From positions 1 through 20,826 of the IMG/VR virus record IMGVR_UViG_3300023179_000605: a DNA stretch of 20,826 nucleotides; one strand, written 5' to 3'. Below, one piece after another: positions 9,380 through 19,529 of this stretch. Both the position numbers and the translations under genes were made by a program. The notes under the pieces are model-generated. The model was not told the DNA's origin, did no database searches, and was given only the letters and a program-made list of their open reading frames with translations. Numbering within the stretch: position 1 is the first letter of the stretch; each line of letters starts with the position of its first letter. This DNA comes from a virus.

Positions 9380-10582
9380 ATGGAAAAGAAGGAATTAATG
9401 TCAGAATTGGAAGCGTTAAAGTCAACACTTGAAACTTCAATATCTGAGAAAACTAAATCTGAAATTGCTGATCAATTAAAATCAGTAGTTACAGCGGTTG
9501 ATGAGAAAATCAACGCATTTGCAAACGGCAACGATTCAGCTGAGGCTGTAAAAGCAATGACTGAAGAGTTCAACAAGTTAAAAGCTGAGCAAGCTGCAAT
9601 TTTAAAAGGATTTGATTTGTTACAAACAAGAGTTAAATCTACAGGATCTACAGTTGAAAACAAAAAATCATTTGGACAAATTTTCAGCGAAGGATTAGAA
9701 GAGAATTTCGACCAAATCCAAAACGTAAAGAAAGGTAAGCCATTCAGAATGGAGTTAAAAGCTGTTGGTAACATGACTTTGACTAACAATTTGACTGGTG
9801 ATGGTGTTGCATCTTATGCAGCTACACAAGCTATCTTGCCTAGCCAAAAAATCAATTTCCGTGATTTAATGCCTACTGCAGTAAGTCCAACAGGTTTGTA
9901 TGTACAATATCGTGAAACTGGCTCTGAAGGTTCTATCAGTGTTCAAACTGAAGGAAGTGGTAAAACTCAAATCGATTACGATTTATCAGAAATCAAAATC
10001 GTTGAAGATTACATTGCAGGTTTTGCACGTTTCTCTAAGCAAATGGCTAAGCAATTACCATTTATGCAAACAACTTTACCAAGATTGTTGCTAAGAGATT
10101 TCTACAAAGCTGAGAACGCTGCATTCTTTAGTGCTGTAAGTACAGCTGCTACAGGATCAACTACATCTGCAGAAACTGATGATATCAAGTTTATCGTTGA
10201 TGCGATTGCTGCACAAATGCAAGCTAACTACAATGCATCTTATGCATTAGTAAGCCACACACAGTTAGCACGTTTAAACAAGCTTTTGTATGTTAACGGT
10301 TACTATCAAGGTTCAGGTGGTATTTTGTCAAGTGTTAACGGAAACATTGCAATCAGCGGAACACCAATCTTACCAGCTTCATGGGTAACTGATGATAAAA
10401 TCTTAATCATCGATAGAGATTATCTTGAGCGTGTTGAAACTGAAGCTATCACTGTTGAGTTCTCAATGGAAGATGCTGACAACTTCACTAAAAACTTGAT
10501 TACTGCACGTATCGAGTGTTTAGAAGATGTAAACTTAATGATGCCTGCATCTGCATTATATGCTGATTTAGGAAACGTATAA
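9380..10582 (+). CDS. Major capsid protein, HK97 fold
   Basis: This 400-residue protein builds the icosahedral shell. The first hundred or so residues are a charged coiled coil (ELEALKSTLETSISEK onward), as in the delta/scaffold domain that HK97-type proteases remove. The mature part follows with a glycine-rich E-loop-like stretch (RETGSEGSISVQTEGSGK), the spine-helix region around FMQTTLPRLLLRDF, and the P-domain/A-domain with ALVSHTQLARL and NGNIAISGTPILP near the end. The protease gene lies 23 bases upstream and a strong terminator follows. Codons here are richer in C-ending choices and in CGT for arginine than in neighbouring genes, fitting high expression. The cleavage position cannot be fixed by eye. 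Confidence 0.93.
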   Translation: MEKKELMSELEALKSTLETSISEKTKSEIADQLKSVVTAVDEKINAFANGNDSAEAVKAMTEEFNKLKAEQAAILKGFDLLQTRVKSTGSTVENKKSFGQIFSEGLEENFDQIQNVKKGKPFRMELKAVGNMTLTNNLTGDGVASYAATQAILPSQKINFRDLMPTAVSPTGLYVQYRETGSEGSISVQTEGSGKTQIDYDLSEIKIVEDYIAGFARFSKQMAKQLPFMQTTLPRLLLRDFYKAENAAFFSAVSTAATGSTTSAETDDIKFIVDAIAAQMQANYNASYALVSHTQLARLNKLLYVNGYYQGSGGILSSVNGNIAISGTPILPASWVTDDKILIIDRDYLERVETEAITVEFSMEDADNFTKNLITARIECLEDVNLMMPASALYADLGNV

Positions 10583-11750: not shown

Positions 11751-12274
11751 TGCAAATAGAAGTAAAGGGTTTAGATACGCTAATTAAGAAGATGGATAAG
11801 TTAGCTAAAGATGTACAAAAGGATGTACAAGCTGAGTTGAATGCGTGGGCAGATGATACGGCAACAATGGCAATAAGTTTGGTAGCGGCAAATAGTAGTG
11901 ATGAGGGTTTATTAAAAAATTCAATTAAGCCAAAATATGGAAACGGCAACGCCAGTGTTGTAGCTGCTACAAAATATGCAGCTTATATTGAGTTTGGTAC
12001 TAGAAAATTTGCATCGGCTTATGTAGGCACGTTGCCTGCAGATTGGGCAACTTATGCAAATACATTTAAAGGCAGTGTTGGAGGAACGTTTGATGATTTA
12101 TTATTGTCTATAATGTTATGGGTTGGTAGAAAAGGTATAGATAAAGATGCGGCTTATCCAATAGCTAGAAAAATTATGATAGATGGTATAAGACCAAAAC
12201 CGTATTTATATCCATCAGTTAACAAAACGTTGCCTGAATTAAAAAAGAATTTAAGAGCAATATTTAAATTATGA
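11750..12274 (+). CDS. HK97 gp10-like neck/tail protein
   Basis: This 174-residue protein matches the HK97 gp10-like family. Recognised features are the opening IEVKGLDTLIKKMDKLAKDVQ, a long amphipathic helix, then the sequence KYAAYIEFGTRKF with the conserved EFGT turn, and the late RPKPYLYPSV segment. Family members act in the neck where the tail joins the head. It is linked by a TAATG junction to the gene before and by an ATGA overlap to the tail completion gene after, so this block is one coupled unit. Length is slightly above typical because of a loop around DWATYANTFKGSVGG. Nothing appears broken. Confidence 0.85.
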   Translation: MQIEVKGLDTLIKKMDKLAKDVQKDVQAELNAWADDTATMAISLVAANSSDEGLLKNSIKPKYGNGNASVVAATKYAAYIEFGTRKFASAYVGTLPADWATYANTFKGSVGGTFDDLLLSIMLWVGRKGIDKDAAYPIARKIMIDGIRPKPYLYPSVNKTLPELKKNLRAIFKL

Positions 12275-12696
12275 GAGACGTAAACAGCGCAATATTACAA
12301 GCTTATTATGAGATAATCTCAGGGTTAGATATTCCTGTATATGAGGGTGAGGAACCGGATGATGTGAAGCATAAAATTTATTGCGTTATCAACGATGCAA
12401 CATCAACTGAGACAAGTACAGCAAATTCATCAGACGTTAATTTGACTATACAGTTGAGCGTTCATAGTTGGGAATACAAATACAATAACAGCAAAACATT
12501 AAATACTGCGTGTGGGGCAATTATAGATGCAATAAAGCCTGATGGAATATCAAACATAGATTTGTCAGCATACGGATTACAAATGTGTAATTTGACGCTA
12601 CAAACGGATAGGACTGAAAGATTTGGTAATTTAGGTGGCAAAGTATTTATTTCAAGAATATTGATTTTTAAACAAGATATTTTCGTAATTTCATAA
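12271..12696 (+). CDS. Tail completion / tail terminator protein (DUF3168-like)
   Basis: This 141-residue protein resembles the tail completion family (DUF3168, HK97 gp17-like). It opens with an amphipathic helix, then DIPVYEGEEPDD, the strand HKIYCVINDATSTETS, then LTIQLSVHSWEY with a following helix, and closes on basic FISRILIFKQD. Proteins of this family cap the tail tube and join it to the neck. Position just before the tail-tube genes is the expected one. It starts with ATGA overlapping the gp10-like gene, and is followed by a 20-base A+T-only gap with no Shine-Dalgarno sequence before the tube gene. The match is structural and contextual more than motif-based. Confidence 0.75.
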   Translation: MRDVNSAILQAYYEIISGLDIPVYEGEEPDDVKHKIYCVINDATSTETSTANSSDVNLTIQLSVHSWEYKYNNSKTLNTACGAIIDAIKPDGISNIDLSAYGLQMCNLTLQTDRTERFGNLGGKVFISRILIFKQDIFVIS

Positions 12697-12716: not shown

Positions 12717-13148
12717 ATGGCAGAACACAAAGTAGCCGGCGGTACAATGTTATTATTCATTGATCCAACAGGTGGTACTGATTATGATACTGTAGTTTGT
12801 TTGACTTCAGTAAGCAAATCTGATTCAATAACAGTTGTAGATGCATCTAGTGCATGTGGCCCTGATAAGAGTCCTGGTACATTAGAATTGTCTTATGCTT
12901 TTGAAGGACAACATTTGCAAGATCCTACAACAGGTAAAATCAGTGGTACATCATTACGTCAATTGTTACGTAGCAAAACTACAATAGGATGGAAGATTGC
13001 TCCTGAAAGCCCAGTAACTGGAGATGAGATTGAAAGCGGTACAGGATTCTTATCTGAGTTGAGTTCAACCTACGCATTCGATTCAGTAGCGACATTCACT
13101 GGAAGTATAAATCCTTATGGAGAACCTTCATTATCAATACAAGCTTAA
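12717..13148 (+). CDS. Major tail tube protein, copy 1 (minimal form)
   Basis: This 143-residue protein is a compact tail tube subunit. Its closing pattern, TYAFDSVATFTGSINPYGEPS, is the conserved last strands of siphophage tube proteins, preceded by a strand-rich body with CGPDKSPGT and a helix near TSLRQLLRSK. Tube proteins stack as hexamers around the tape measure. It is followed ten bases later by a paralogue that it matches at roughly 124 of 143 residues by my count. Its arginine codons in the RQLLR segment are CGT, the choice dominant in the capsid gene, while the paralogue uses AGA, suggesting this copy is made in larger amount. That expression inference needs testing. The leader is A/T-only. 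Confidence 0.85.
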   Translation: MAEHKVAGGTMLLFIDPTGGTDYDTVVCLTSVSKSDSITVVDASSACGPDKSPGTLELSYAFEGQHLQDPTTGKISGTSLRQLLRSKTTIGWKIAPESPVTGDEIESGTGFLSELSSTYAFDSVATFTGSINPYGEPSLSIQA

Positions 13149-13158
13149 TTTTAAATAA

Positions 13159-13902
13159 ATGGCTGAACATAAAGTAGAAGGTGGCAACATGCTACTCTTC
13201 ATAGATCCTAATGGAGGCACTGACTATGATATAGTTGTGTGCCTTACATCTGTAAGCAAAGCAGACAGCATAACTGTTGTTGATGCTAGTAGTGCATGTG
13301 GCCCGGATAAAAGTCCGGGAACATTAGAATTATCTTATGCGTTCGAAGGTCAACATTTACAAGACCCAGATAGTGGGAAAATTAGTGGTACTGACTTAAG
13401 ATTTTTGTTAAGAGCAGAGCAAACCATTGGATGGAAAATAGCACCTGAGACCCCGGTTAATGGTGATGAGATTGAGGAAGGTACAGGGTTTTTATCAGAA
13501 TTAAGTTCAACATATTCCTTCGATTCGGTCGCTACATTTACTGGAAGTATAAATCCTTATGGACAACCTTCATTGAGCACATTTGCGGGTGCATTAACAA
13601 TAACAGCAAATAATTCTAATCCAATAACATATAATGTTGGAGATATTATATCTACTCCATTAACTATTGGTACTGCAACTGGAGGTACTCCACCATATAC
13701 TTATTATTTTACTGATTTGTTCGATGTTGATTGTACTTCATACATTTCATCATTATTTTCAGGTGGATTTGATACATCAAATGCAACTATATCAGGTACA
13801 GTTATTGGAGGTACATTAGGAGTTGAAAATTATAGATTGCATGTTGTTGATTCGGCATCAAATGACACGTATGTACAAATTGACTTTAATTTAATACCAT
13901 AA
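13159..13902 (+). CDS. Tail tube protein, copy 2, with C-terminal Ig-like domain
   Basis: Residues 1 to about 143 are a paralogue of the preceding tube protein, differing mainly at surface-type positions. Residues from about 148 to 247 add an Ig-like domain of the He_PIG/putative-Ig type: TATGGTPPYTYYF, then NATISGTVIGGTLG, then YRLHVVDSASNDTY. Such domains often decorate virions and bind carbohydrates weakly. At DNA level the shared part differs at many synonymous positions, so the duplication is not recent, or one copy came from a related phage. It may be a minor, decorated tube subunit, or the one forming a special ring. It lies ten bases after copy 1 and 20 before the tail chaperone gene. 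Confidence 0.85.
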   Translation: MAEHKVEGGNMLLFIDPNGGTDYDIVVCLTSVSKADSITVVDASSACGPDKSPGTLELSYAFEGQHLQDPDSGKISGTDLRFLLRAEQTIGWKIAPETPVNGDEIEEGTGFLSELSSTYSFDSVATFTGSINPYGQPSLSTFAGALTITANNSNPITYNVGDIISTPLTIGTATGGTPPYTYYFTDLFDVDCTSYISSLFSGGFDTSNATISGTVIGGTLGVENYRLHVVDSASNDTYVQIDFNLIP

Positions 13903-13922
13903 AATAAAAAACTAAACAAAAA

Positions 13923-14270
13923 ATGAAAATTAAACTAAACGGCAAAGAGTTCGGAATCAAATTTAATCAATTAGCCATTGAAAAGCTTCATGAGTATAAT
14001 GATGGAGAAACTACATCCGGGTTTATGTATGCGATGGTATATGGTGGCATGATTGGTTACAGCAGGTTGAAGCGTGAGGATGTAGATTATACTTGGGAAA
14101 ATGTTTGTGAGTGGGTTGATGAGATGGAAAATAAAAATGAGCAAATCCAAGCTATAACATTGTTATTGAACGAAACAAAAATTTGGAATGACCTTATTAA
14201 GCAAGGTCAAGAGATAAGAGAGAATGAGGAGAAAAAAAAAGCCATCGAGAGCAATGCTACGACAATTTAA
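13923..14270 (+). CDS. Tail assembly chaperone, short form (gpG-like)
   Basis: This 115-residue protein lies between tube and tape measure genes, where gpG-type chaperones sit. It begins with a strand pair (MKIKLNGKEFGIKFNQLA), continues with helices and ends in a highly charged tail (QEIRENEEKKKAIES). Chaperones of this type coat the tape measure and recruit tube subunits; they are not in the finished virion. The coding sequence contains nine A's at 14232-14240. A -1 slip there continues, without any stop, into the next frame and gives a longer fusion of about 211 residues. The ATG start has an A-rich leader. The family call is mostly from context and the frameshift. Confidence 0.8.
   Translation: MKIKLNGKEFGIKFNQLAIEKLHEYNDGETTSGFMYAMVYGGMIGYSRLKREDVDYTWENVCEWVDEMENKNEQIQAITLLLNETKIWNDLIKQGQEIRENEEKKKAIESNATTI
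14234..14240 (+). other. Probable -1 programmed frameshift site (A AAA AAA)
   Basis: Nine A's occupy 14232-14240, with zero-frame codons AAA AAA AAA. The last seven form the classical A AAA AAA heptamer. Slipping one base back reads AGC at 14240-14242 and stays open to the stop at 14557. The zero frame stops at 14268-14270, so both products are possible. Confidence 0.8.
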
Positions 14271-14320: not shown

Positions 14321-14557
14321 ATGCCTCATGAGTTCTATGCAGCGTGTGAGGGATACCAGGAGAGGCAAAAGGAATCGGCTATGGTCATTCGTTTTGCCTC
14401 TTTTCGCATAGCGGAAGCAATGGCAGGCAGTAAGGCAATAGGTAAAATAAATCGTTTTTGGCCTATGGAAGATGAGCAAGAGAAAAAAGAAGTTGAGCCA
14501 ATGACTGCAGATAGATACAAAGCTATTTTAGAAAGACACAATTTAAAGATTAAATAA
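14321..14557 (+). CDS. Distal frame of the tail assembly chaperone (T part of gpGT-like fusion)
   Basis: This reading frame is best seen as the C-terminal part of a frameshift fusion; the independent ATG at 14321 would give only 78 residues. In this frame the sequence is open back past the A9 run, with no ATG, GTG or TTG between 14240 and 14321. Residues before the ATG (FALGKLGWSVDEYYCSM) flow naturally into PHEFYAACEGYQERQ, a pattern typical of tail chaperone T domains. The fusion would join 13923-14240 to 14240-14557, about 211 residues. The T part normally binds tube protein. The stop shares its last A with the tape measure ATG (TAATG), so the expected gene order G, GT, tape measure is preserved. 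Confidence 0.75.
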   Translation: MPHEFYAACEGYQERQKESAMVIRFASFRIAEAMAGSKAIGKINRFWPMEDEQEKKEVEPMTADRYKAILERHNLKIK

Positions 14558-16437
14558 TGGCAGAAGAGATAGAGATAATAGTTACCGCGACCGGGTTTGA
14601 TAAGGTTAGTTCAGGGTTAAAAAATACTACTGATGCATTAAAGAGTACAGCTACTGAGGCTAAGAAAACTGGAGACGCATTAAAAAGTAGTTTAAATGCT
14701 GGATCTGCTCAAGCCGGACAATCAATACAAAATCTATCTAGAATTGCATCAGATGCTCCTTATGGTTTTATAGGTATTGAAAATAACATCAATCCATTAG
14801 TTGAATCATTTGGCAGATTAAGAGCTGAGACTGGTAGCACTGGTGGAGCATTAAAAGCATTGGTTGGTGGGTTAAGTGGTGCTGGTGGTTTGGGTTTAGC
14901 ATTTAGTGCTGTAACTGCAGCTATTACATTTGCTCAAATAGGTTTTAGTGCTTGGAATAGAACAGCAAAAGCAACAAAAGAGACTGCAGATGAAACAGCT
15001 AAAGCTATGGAATCGATAACAGATTCTTTAGCTAAAGAGGCAACCAAAGTTACTTCATTAATTGCTGTATTAAATAATGAAAGTGAAAGTAGAGAAAGAA
15101 AATTATCAGCATTAAATGAATTAAAGAAAATTAATCCTGAAATATTTGGAGCTTTAGAATTAGAAAAGGGTAAAGTTGAAGGATTAACTACTGCTTATGA
15201 TGCTTATATTGCTTCATTAAAAAATACATTAACAGCTAAGCTTTTACAAGGTAGAATTGAAAAAGAATTAAATGAGTTAATAAAATTACAAGGTGGAACT
15301 TTAACTGAAACTGAAAAAGGTATTTTAAATATAGGCAATGCTATAAATTCAGGAGTTGTTAAAAATTTACAACAATTTGGTAGTGAAGGAGCTAATGCAG
15401 CAATAAAATTACAAGAAATAAATACTGCCTTAGATAAGAAAAAACAAGGTAATATAGATGCTGTAAAGGGTAGAATTGCAGCATTAACAACTGAATTAAG
15501 TAAACTAAGCCAATCTATAGATTTACCTCAAATAAAACCTGATAAAGAGGGTAAAGTAAAAAAGGCAAAAAAAGATGTTGAAACATTAACTGATGCTTAT
15601 AATGCTTTTATTCAAGAGCTTGTAAACAATCAAAAACTAGCTACATTATTCAATGAGCCAGTATTAAAGAAAAACATTGATTCATTTGAGAATTTTATAC
15701 AATTAGCTGTAAAAAAGTTTAATGCTAATGCAACATTTACTTTACCAATAGTTTTTGAGTTAAATACTTTAAGGAAATCATTAGAAAAAGCGAAACCAAA
15801 AGACTTAGTAAAATCATTACAAGATCAAATTAATCTTACACCAATTGAGATACCTTTTACAATACCACAAGGCTCAATAGACAATATAAAAAAACAAGCA
15901 GTAGATATTACAGATGCATTAGGAGCTGCAGTACAATCATCAATAGTAGCTATTGGTATAGGATTAGGTGAAGCTTTAGCAACTGGATTAACTGGCGGAG
16001 ATTTAACAAGCGTATTTCAAGCTTTATTTAATCAATTAGGAGGTATTATATCTACTTTAGGAGAACAAGTAATAGCTATTGGTGTAGCTGGTATTTTAGC
16101 ACAAAAAGCAGTTGCTCAAGCTTTAGCAAATCCATTCTTAGCAATAGCAGCAGGTGTGGCATTAGTAGCATTAGGTTCATTAATAAAAAGTTCTTTATCG
16201 TCTCAAAATAAATTTGCAGTTGGTACAAGAAATGCACCTGGTGGAATGGCTTTAGTCGGTGAGCGTGGTCCGGAATTAGTAAGCTTGCCTAGAGGCAGTC
16301 AAGTTATTCCTGCAGCGCAAACATCTAACATGTTGGGTGGTGTTGGCGGTGGCATTGAGATTTATGGCATTTTAAGAGGTCAAGACATTTACTTTAGTAA
16401 CAAAAAATATAGTGCTACTTATGCACGTACAACATAA
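14557..16437 (+). CDS. Tail tape measure protein
   Basis: This 626-residue protein sets tail length and is stored inside the tube. It has long lysine/glutamate-rich helices with coiled-coil character, a hydrophobic glycine/alanine segment near residues 103-132, and a second hydrophobic region near 465-550, both typical of tape measures that may insert in the host membrane. The C-terminus carries the family's frequent ending, GGMALVGERGPELVSLPRGS, near residues 561-580. At about 0.15 nm per helical residue, the tail would be near 90 nm, rather short; that is a family rule of thumb. No peptidoglycan-cutting domain is visible. The gene joins its neighbours by TAATG junctions on both sides. Confidence 0.92.
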   Translation: MAEEIEIIVTATGFDKVSSGLKNTTDALKSTATEAKKTGDALKSSLNAGSAQAGQSIQNLSRIASDAPYGFIGIENNINPLVESFGRLRAETGSTGGALKALVGGLSGAGGLGLAFSAVTAAITFAQIGFSAWNRTAKATKETADETAKAMESITDSLAKEATKVTSLIAVLNNESESRERKLSALNELKKINPEIFGALELEKGKVEGLTTAYDAYIASLKNTLTAKLLQGRIEKELNELIKLQGGTLTETEKGILNIGNAINSGVVKNLQQFGSEGANAAIKLQEINTALDKKKQGNIDAVKGRIAALTTELSKLSQSIDLPQIKPDKEGKVKKAKKDVETLTDAYNAFIQELVNNQKLATLFNEPVLKKNIDSFENFIQLAVKKFNANATFTLPIVFELNTLRKSLEKAKPKDLVKSLQDQINLTPIEIPFTIPQGSIDNIKKQAVDITDALGAAVQSSIVAIGIGLGEALATGLTGGDLTSVFQALFNQLGGIISTLGEQVIAIGVAGILAQKAVAQALANPFLAIAAGVALVALGSLIKSSLSSQNKFAVGTRNAPGGMALVGERGPELVSLPRGSQVIPAAQTSNMLGGVGGGIEIYGILRGQDIYFSNKKYSATYARTT

Positions 16438-18710: not shown

Positions 18711-19529
18711 ATGGGATTAGTAAGAGGCGAAGATGTAATATTAAGCACACAACAATTCAATGGAGTTGAAAATGTGTTTATACCATTTGGTTGCGCTAGA
18801 TCAGTAACATTCGATATATCTACGGATTTTATTGAGACATCAGTTACTGAATCAGGTGCATTTAAAACATTTATTCCATCAGGTAAGCAATTTAGTGGTA
18901 ATATTGAAGGATTAGTTTTTTTAAATAAACCAGCAACCACTGAAACAAAAGCAACAGTTACGATAGATTTTTCATCAATAAGCGGCTTATTTCCATCATT
19001 ATCATCAACAGCTTTGATTAATTTAGTTAATCCTCCGGGAAGTTCACTTACTGTATGCAATTTAGGAGCCGCATCATATTTGACATTGGATGATTATTTA
19101 ACAGCTATTAATAATTATATAAATGCTGGTGGTACAGGTTATACTTCAACAATTGTTGGTAATACAATTGTAATTACAGCCAGACCTGATGTAGGTGCTA
19201 CTATTAATGGCAATGCTTGTTATACAAGTTATGATATTGATGGGAATACACCGCCATCACCAGGATATATTACTGATAATTTTTCTGGTGGTATTAATGG
19301 TTATCATCCTGACAGGTTAGGTCTTGGATGGATGTATGATAAATTGGTTACAGGAGAAAGAATTTATTTACAATATTACGAAACTGATGATGATAATCAT
19401 TATTTACAAAAATTTTGTTATGTATACATTGAATCAATCAATGAAACAGCATCATTTGACAATATGACAACATTTTCAGCATCATTTAAAGGCGATGGCG
19501 CACCAACTATAACTTATGGCGACATTTAA
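18711..19529 (+). CDS. Tail-tube-like protein with inserted domain, tail tip region
   Basis: The two ends of this 272-residue protein look like a tail tube fold of the TP901-1 major tail protein type. The N-terminal part has SVTFDISTDFIETSVTESG and SGKQFSGNIEGLVFL; the C-terminal part has FCYVYIESINETASFDNMTT and SASFKGDGAPT. Residues from about 95 to 200 are an insertion with DYLTAINNYINAGGTGYTS, TIVGNTIVITARP and GATINGNACYT, resembling a small beta-rich unit. The protein is far from the tube genes and follows the tail-tip gene, so it may form a specialised ring at the tip or carry the fibre. It starts three bases after the tip gene and overlaps the fibre gene by 14 bases. Confidence 0.65.
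   Translation: MGLVRGEDVILSTQQFNGVENVFIPFGCARSVTFDISTDFIETSVTESGAFKTFIPSGKQFSGNIEGLVFLNKPATTETKATVTIDFSSISGLFPSLSSTALINLVNPPGSSLTVCNLGAASYLTLDDYLTAINNYINAGGTGYTSTIVGNTIVITARPDVGATINGNACYTSYDIDGNTPPSPGYITDNFSGGINGYHPDRLGLGWMYDKLVTGERIYLQYYETDDDNHYLQKFCYVYIESINETASFDNMTTFSASFKGDGAPTITYGDI

Follow-up and report, generated by a model that had tools for sequence, protein, structure and literature searches.

Why a phage would carry two adjacent genes for the same tail-tube domain, the second lengthened by an additional C-terminal domain, is the question raised by a locus in an uncultivated bacterial virus, record IMGVR_UViG_3300023179_000605. The window analysed here is the entire IMG/VR record of 20,826 bases, which is classed as linear and is possibly a genome fragment. 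Its genes follow the order terminase, portal, protease, capsid (PF05065), head completion, HK97-gp10-like, tail terminator, tube, and tape measure, and no sheath gene was found 5′ of the tube gene in the window. This gene order, together with the absence of a sheath gene before the tube gene, indicates a siphovirus, and by its sequence the virus is of the Cellulophaga/Flavobacterium phage type. Among isolates, the nearest capsid protein is that of Cellulophaga phage phi10:1 (36%), followed by that of Flavobacterium phage 11b (31%), and the identities of the tube protein to these two phages are 26% and 30%, respectively.

Both of these phages possess a single tube gene at the matching position and lack an extended neighbour, whereas the window possesses a pair. 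Among known phages, the plain copy has only distant Cellulophaga and Flavobacterium phages as relatives, and the extended copy gave zero matches among 50,697 phage records. A scan of bacterial genome contigs for the host also gave zero relatives. In phage 11b, a 147-aa gene unlike the tube protein follows the tube gene; gene 37 of this phage was considered as a second tube copy and rejected, as by eye it bears no resemblance to the tube protein.

The two tube ORFs of the window are intact, each with its own start and stop, and are separated by a gap of 10 nt (Table 1). Both sit between the tail terminator and the tape measure genes, as expected of tube genes. Their tube domains are identical at 124 of 143 positions (E 3e-92), far above chance, and over 142 codons the nucleotide identity is 73.7%, with 62 synonymous and 19 non-synonymous codon differences. 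A previous sequence-only reading of the locus had described adjacent genes with about 87% identical tube domains, many synonymous differences between them, and an additional Ig-like domain of about 100 residues in the second copy, and each of these descriptions was borne out, the additional domain comprising about 105 residues predicted to form a beta sandwich. By their sequences, the two genes thus encode a plain and a C-terminally extended tube protein within one phage.

Table 1. Positions in the window of the two tube genes, their parts, and the neighbouring genes referred to in the text.
Feature	Position	Strand	Evidence
Major capsid protein; codon-usage reference	9380..10582	+	Pfam PF05065 1.2e-11
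Tail terminator, upstream neighbour of the plain tube gene	12271..12696	+	PHROG 176 tail terminator 9.3e-6
Plain tail-tube (major tail) protein, 143 aa	12717..13148	+	PHROG 1407 3.4e-9; capsid-like codon usage, CAI 0.695
Two CGT arginine codons, R81 and R85, of the plain copy (12957, 12969)	12957..12971	+	Sequence
Presence/absence cassette, missing in single-copy relatives	13149..13907	+	Nucleotide match to L021 breaks off at 13150 and picks up again at 13908
Extended tail-tube paralogue, 247 aa	13159..13902	+	PHROG 1407 1.5e-8; 87% identity to plain copy; Foldseek
Tube domain of the extended copy, residues 1-142	13159..13584	+	80alpha match Z 10.7; CAI 0.489, equal to genome background
Two AGA arginine codons, R81 and R85, of the extended copy (13399, 13411)	13399..13413	+	Sequence
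Predicted Ig-like C-terminal domain, residues 143-247 and stop	13585..13902	+	pLDDT ~85-95; Ig/cadherin-like matches Z 8.0-8.3
Small gene between tube and tape measure; putative tail assembly chaperone by position	13923..14270	+	Position, conservation in relatives; no match in PHROG search
Tape measure protein	14557..16437	+	PHROG 25337 tape measure 1.2e-9
Third, distant tube-fold paralogue with inserted domain, downstream of tape measure	18711..19529	+	PHROG 1407 2.3e-13; model tube matches Z 7-8

In the predicted model of the extended copy, residues 7-142 adopt the tube fold, matching the 80alpha tube protein, with moderate confidence in this part (means over 10-residue blocks, ~38-81). The best two-domain match obtained with Foldseek was lambda gpV (3.3e-7), and T5 pb6 and SPP1 were also among the matches. 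The beta sandwich predicted for residues 143-247 has Ig- or cadherin-like proteins as its best folds, including SraP (4m00; Z 8.0, rmsd 2.6, 88 residues), and the N-domain of the B. fragilis alpha-galactosidase was matched with Z 8.3. None of the Pfam Ig models matched the window extension above its cut-off (SprB scored 14.7 bits, its cut-off being 28), and therefore the label "Ig-like" rests on the fold. The predicted structure identifies the window extension as an Ig-like domain and agrees with a tube protein that bears such a domain on its outside, lambda gpV being the parallel.

Relatives of the locus were gathered by two scans of viral contigs and the sorting of all ORFs with a tube domain, which yielded at least 85 contigs including the window. 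Among the matches listed, 51 of the 85, a few of them with a divergent or truncated second copy, carry the plain copy together with one or two extended copies, 34 carry the plain copy alone, and none carries the extended copy alone. The plain copy comes first in all of the paired contigs listed except L104, in which the order of the tube genes is long-short-long. Three contigs each combine a single plain tube gene with two extended ones that differ from each other (L066:326-2737, L074:4657-7065, and L104:2330-4693). In another contig, a plain-length, very divergent second tube copy (L064:6443-6874) lies between the plain copy and a copy bearing a BspA-LRR extension. Three further contigs (L043, L072, and L076) have short-tailed second copies of 156-169 aa, each followed by a separate gene of 150-159 aa, and in these the decoration may be carried by a separate protein.

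Placing the extended copies on the tree of tube domains takes 5 label changes, compared with 31 in shuffles, and 32 of these copies form a group, with support of 92, that includes one plain copy (that of L065). The long copy of the window lies inside a starred all-long group of 12. Within a genome, the plain and extended copies differ from each other by dS values of 0.9-2.3, near saturation, which exceed the typical dS between orthologues (median ~0.73), and the dN/dS values of the tube domains are 0.135 for the plain and 0.139 for the long copies. These comparisons indicate that the duplication is old and that both copies are maintained under purifying selection. The plain and extended copies of one contig (L065:390-1713) group together on the tree, unlike most pairs, which probably reflects gene conversion or a renewed duplication.

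A Ka/Ks comparison and a gene tree had been named by the sequence-only reading as a means of dating the duplication. With largely separate clades of long and short copies and a dN/dS of ~0.14 in both, a recent or pseudogenising duplicate restricted to this genome is ruled out. The proposal that gene duplication supplies the plain and decorated forms stands insofar as neither gene of this old pair has been given up, but it was too narrow, since the extension is not always an Ig domain, the extended gene comes and goes as a gain/loss cassette, and each tube domain carries class-specific residues, as described below.

Several types of C-terminal module occur on the extended copies. On a shared tube clade, Ig-like extensions are found in the window, L002, L003, and L004, with identities of the window domain to the other three of 74%, 56%, and 45%, respectively. 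Fib_succ_major extensions are present in L005, L008, and L012, Lcl_C-like extensions in many copies, every one of them below the Pfam cut-off, and He_PIG together with Lcl_C in L030 and L040, He_PIG being above the Pfam cut-off in L030, L040, and L104. A BspA-type LRR_5 extension is carried by a more divergent copy (L064). The tree of the long tube domains requires 7 changes of module type, the minimum possible being 4; the Ig module is scattered on this tree (3 changes), with a single clade still allowed (AU p 0.146). In addition, the third copies of L066 and L074 share 97% identity in the tube domain and 36% in the extension. These sequence comparisons indicate that the C-terminal module is exchanged between extended copies.

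Fib_succ_major and DUF1566 (equivalent to Lcl_C) are presumed host-adhesion modules of Bacteroides phages (PMC8143477). The targets of the diversity-generating retroelements of the Bacuni phages resemble the present family in carrying these two modules, presumably for host adhesion, in phages of Bacteroidota; there, however, the modules are diversified by a retroelement (PMC8143477), whereas here they sit on a tube protein. For a diversity-generating retroelement acting on the lectin-like modules of the present family, no reverse transcriptase was found in 25 contigs, which are fragments.

The extended gene as a whole is also variable in its presence. When close relatives that differ in the presence of the long copy are aligned as nucleotides, the match breaks at the stop of the plain gene and resumes at the stop of the long gene; for the window and L021 these points are 13150 and 13908, and the L030/L025, L012/L034, L008/L027, and L006/L037 alignments break likewise. 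On the capsid-protein tree, the paired or single state changes at least 11 times, and at least five of these changes are forced by well-supported branches. These results indicate that the extended gene is a precisely bounded cassette that has been gained or lost at least five times.

In 27 of the 34 single-copy contigs listed, a strong hairpin fills the slot after the tube gene (for example, L021:6433-6506), whereas in the paired genomes an intergenic hairpin was found neither between the copies nor after the long copy; a formal test of this association is inflated by relatedness. The slot hairpins comprise about four unrelated sequences, in different lineages. The hairpin is a candidate terminator or mRNA stabiliser and may boost the output of the plain tube protein relative to the downstream genes.

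The tube domains of the two classes differ at a small number of nearly fixed positions, which were counted after setting aside the pairs of L065 and L077 and the rows that diverge most. Position 87 is K in 62 of 62 plain copies, including those of single-copy genomes, and E in 29 of 30 extended copies. Position 10 (T in plain copies, N, D, or S in long copies) and position 79 (S and D, respectively) are near-clean class sites, as are position 7 (A in plain copies, Q or E in long copies) and position 82 (Q in plain copies, I, F, or L in long copies). The tube domain of the long copy keeps the fold and nearly all conserved residues. The nearly fixed class-specific residues indicate that the long copy has a conserved tube surface of its own, which would not be expected if it were just the plain subunit with an Ig domain added. 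They are the strongest reason to consider that the extended protein has a dedicated position or a heterotypic contact, and the nearly fixed K87E difference with the neighbouring changes could mean that it occupies a dedicated position rather than mixing freely.

The codon usage of the two classes differs as well. The contrast of CGT and AGA arginine codons that had been pointed out in the matching segment of the window is real but tiny, at two codons per gene, and a family-wide test was used in its place. The contrast extends across the family: in 25 of 35 pairs the plain copy uses CGN for arginine more often than the long copy does, and in no pair less often; the CAI of the plain copy is higher than that of the long copy in 23 of 23 genomes; and in 32 of 35 pairs the long copy has the more stably folded start region, although these codon and start-region comparisons are not fully independent trials, because all of the pairs stem from one old duplication. 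Relative to the capsid gene of the same genome, the CAI is 0.616 for the plain copies, 0.502 for the long copies, and 0.513 for other genes, and at identical residues the averages are 0.631 for the plain and 0.494 for the long copies. Capsid-like codon usage is thus a property of the plain copy, and the long copy lies at the background of the genome. The CAI of the plain copy also exceeds that of its upstream neighbour in 17 of 20 cases, whereas that of the long copy does not. Since synonymous sites have turned over heavily, the persistence of the contrast points to maintained selection on it. Codon usage and start folding are marks of lower expression of the extended copy; codon choice, which the sequence-only reading proposed to set a major and a minor subunit, may set the ratio of plain to extended protein or may reflect it.

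These observations are probably best explained if the plain protein is the main tube subunit and the extended protein an optional, probably minor, paralogous subunit that displays an exchangeable surface domain. The plain 143-aa gene would encode the obligatory, highly expressed subunit that builds the tube, and the 247-aa paralogue would combine a tube domain with an outward-facing adhesive module, its gene being an optional cassette inserted after the tube gene and before the small chaperone-like gene. The extended product would most likely co-assemble with the plain subunit at a minority of tube positions, so that the module would stud the tail and aid attachment to host surfaces. We infer the incorporation of the extended protein into the virion, its minority dose, its outward display, and its adhesive role from the features described above.

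In the main alternative arrangement, the extended paralogue is confined to a dedicated ring, or a few such rings, at the head end or the tip of the tail and is not mixed along the tube. Paralogous tube proteins form dedicated rings in some contractile injection systems, and the nearly fixed differences between the classes (the K87E charge reversal, the N-terminal changes, and the changes around the helix) would fit such a ring, as would the low codon adaptation of the extended copy, which suits a low-copy part. A dedicated ring should, however, resist loss, whereas the gene is missing in 34 of the 85 contigs listed, with at least five supported switches and exact borders; moreover, some genomes carry two extended copies, and a third tube-fold protein is already present downstream of the tape measure. 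We consider this arrangement unlikely.

Uniform, high-density decoration, with the extended copy replacing the plain one in some virions or being co-dominant with it, appears less probable still: it would be compatible with the 10-nt distance and probable co-transcription of the two genes and with an extended copy that is intact and constrained, but none of the 85 contigs listed has the extended copy alone, and both codon usage and start folding suggest that the extended copy is translated less. Cassette-like gain and loss would also suit a soluble or selfish product outside the tail, such as a decoy or a superinfection factor, but this has very little probability, because a soluble function would call neither for a tube domain constrained as strongly as in the plain copy nor for the retention of its fold and of nearly all conserved residues.

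A family-wide docking rule can be put forward tentatively, although we rather doubt it. An old, separately evolving "adaptor" subunit, marked by E87 and linked residues, would fit only K87 tubes and bear whatever module recombination supplies, its dose being kept low by codons and start structure, and the hairpin in most cassette-free genomes would keep the output of the plain protein high.

Dual tube proteins with an accessory domain are known from other phages. In SPP1, plain and extended tube proteins co-assemble at 3:1, and the extension is dispensable (PMC8718954). The pair described here resembles SPP1 gp17.1/gp17.1* in the shared tube domain and in the C-terminal Ig-fold (FN3) of one form, which is the dispensable part in SPP1 (PMC8718954, PMC9022992), and by analogy the window system probably works like the dual tube proteins of SPP1. 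In SPP1, however, both forms arise from one gene by a +1 frameshift and have identical tube domains (PMC8718954, PMC9022992), whereas here there are two genes with diverged class-specific sites. No frameshift origin of the extended form was found in the window, which holds two complete genes, and with the defining frameshift absent, this is not an SPP1-type system.

Similarly, in the lactococcal 936-group, a fraction of the MTP carries the TpeX extension, with carbohydrate-binding modules that bind host cells, and some phages lack it (PMC6669499). That extension arises by a programmed frameshift and without a separate paralogous gene (PMC6669499), whereas here the gene is separate. Lambda gpV and T5 pb6, which are among the best folds of the extended copy, likewise have an outer Ig-like domain after the tube domain, but each is encoded by a single gene, so that every subunit is decorated and a plain partner is absent (PMC8718954), whereas here a plain partner is present. 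No description of duplicated plain and decorated tube genes was found in the searchable open-access literature. Dual tube proteins with an accessory domain are known, and the paralogous arrangement that makes them here, by gene duplication, is one for which no description was found in that literature.

Frameshifting ties the ratio of the two forms to one slippery site and forces them to share a tube domain, and a paralogous pair lifts both constraints. The decorated subunit is then able to evolve contacts of its own, its module can be swapped while the main tube stays unchanged, and its gene can be lost or regained whole. With close relatives that have and lack the cassette, and with several modules, the purpose of tail-tube decorations, a long-open question, becomes directly testable.

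The third tube-fold paralogue of the window carries its insert at about residues 75-200, and relatives without the insert are present in L043 and L055. In phage phi10:1, a tube-family gene (gp089) occupies a similar place, downstream of the tape-measure region, and the third paralogue is found in single-copy genomes too.
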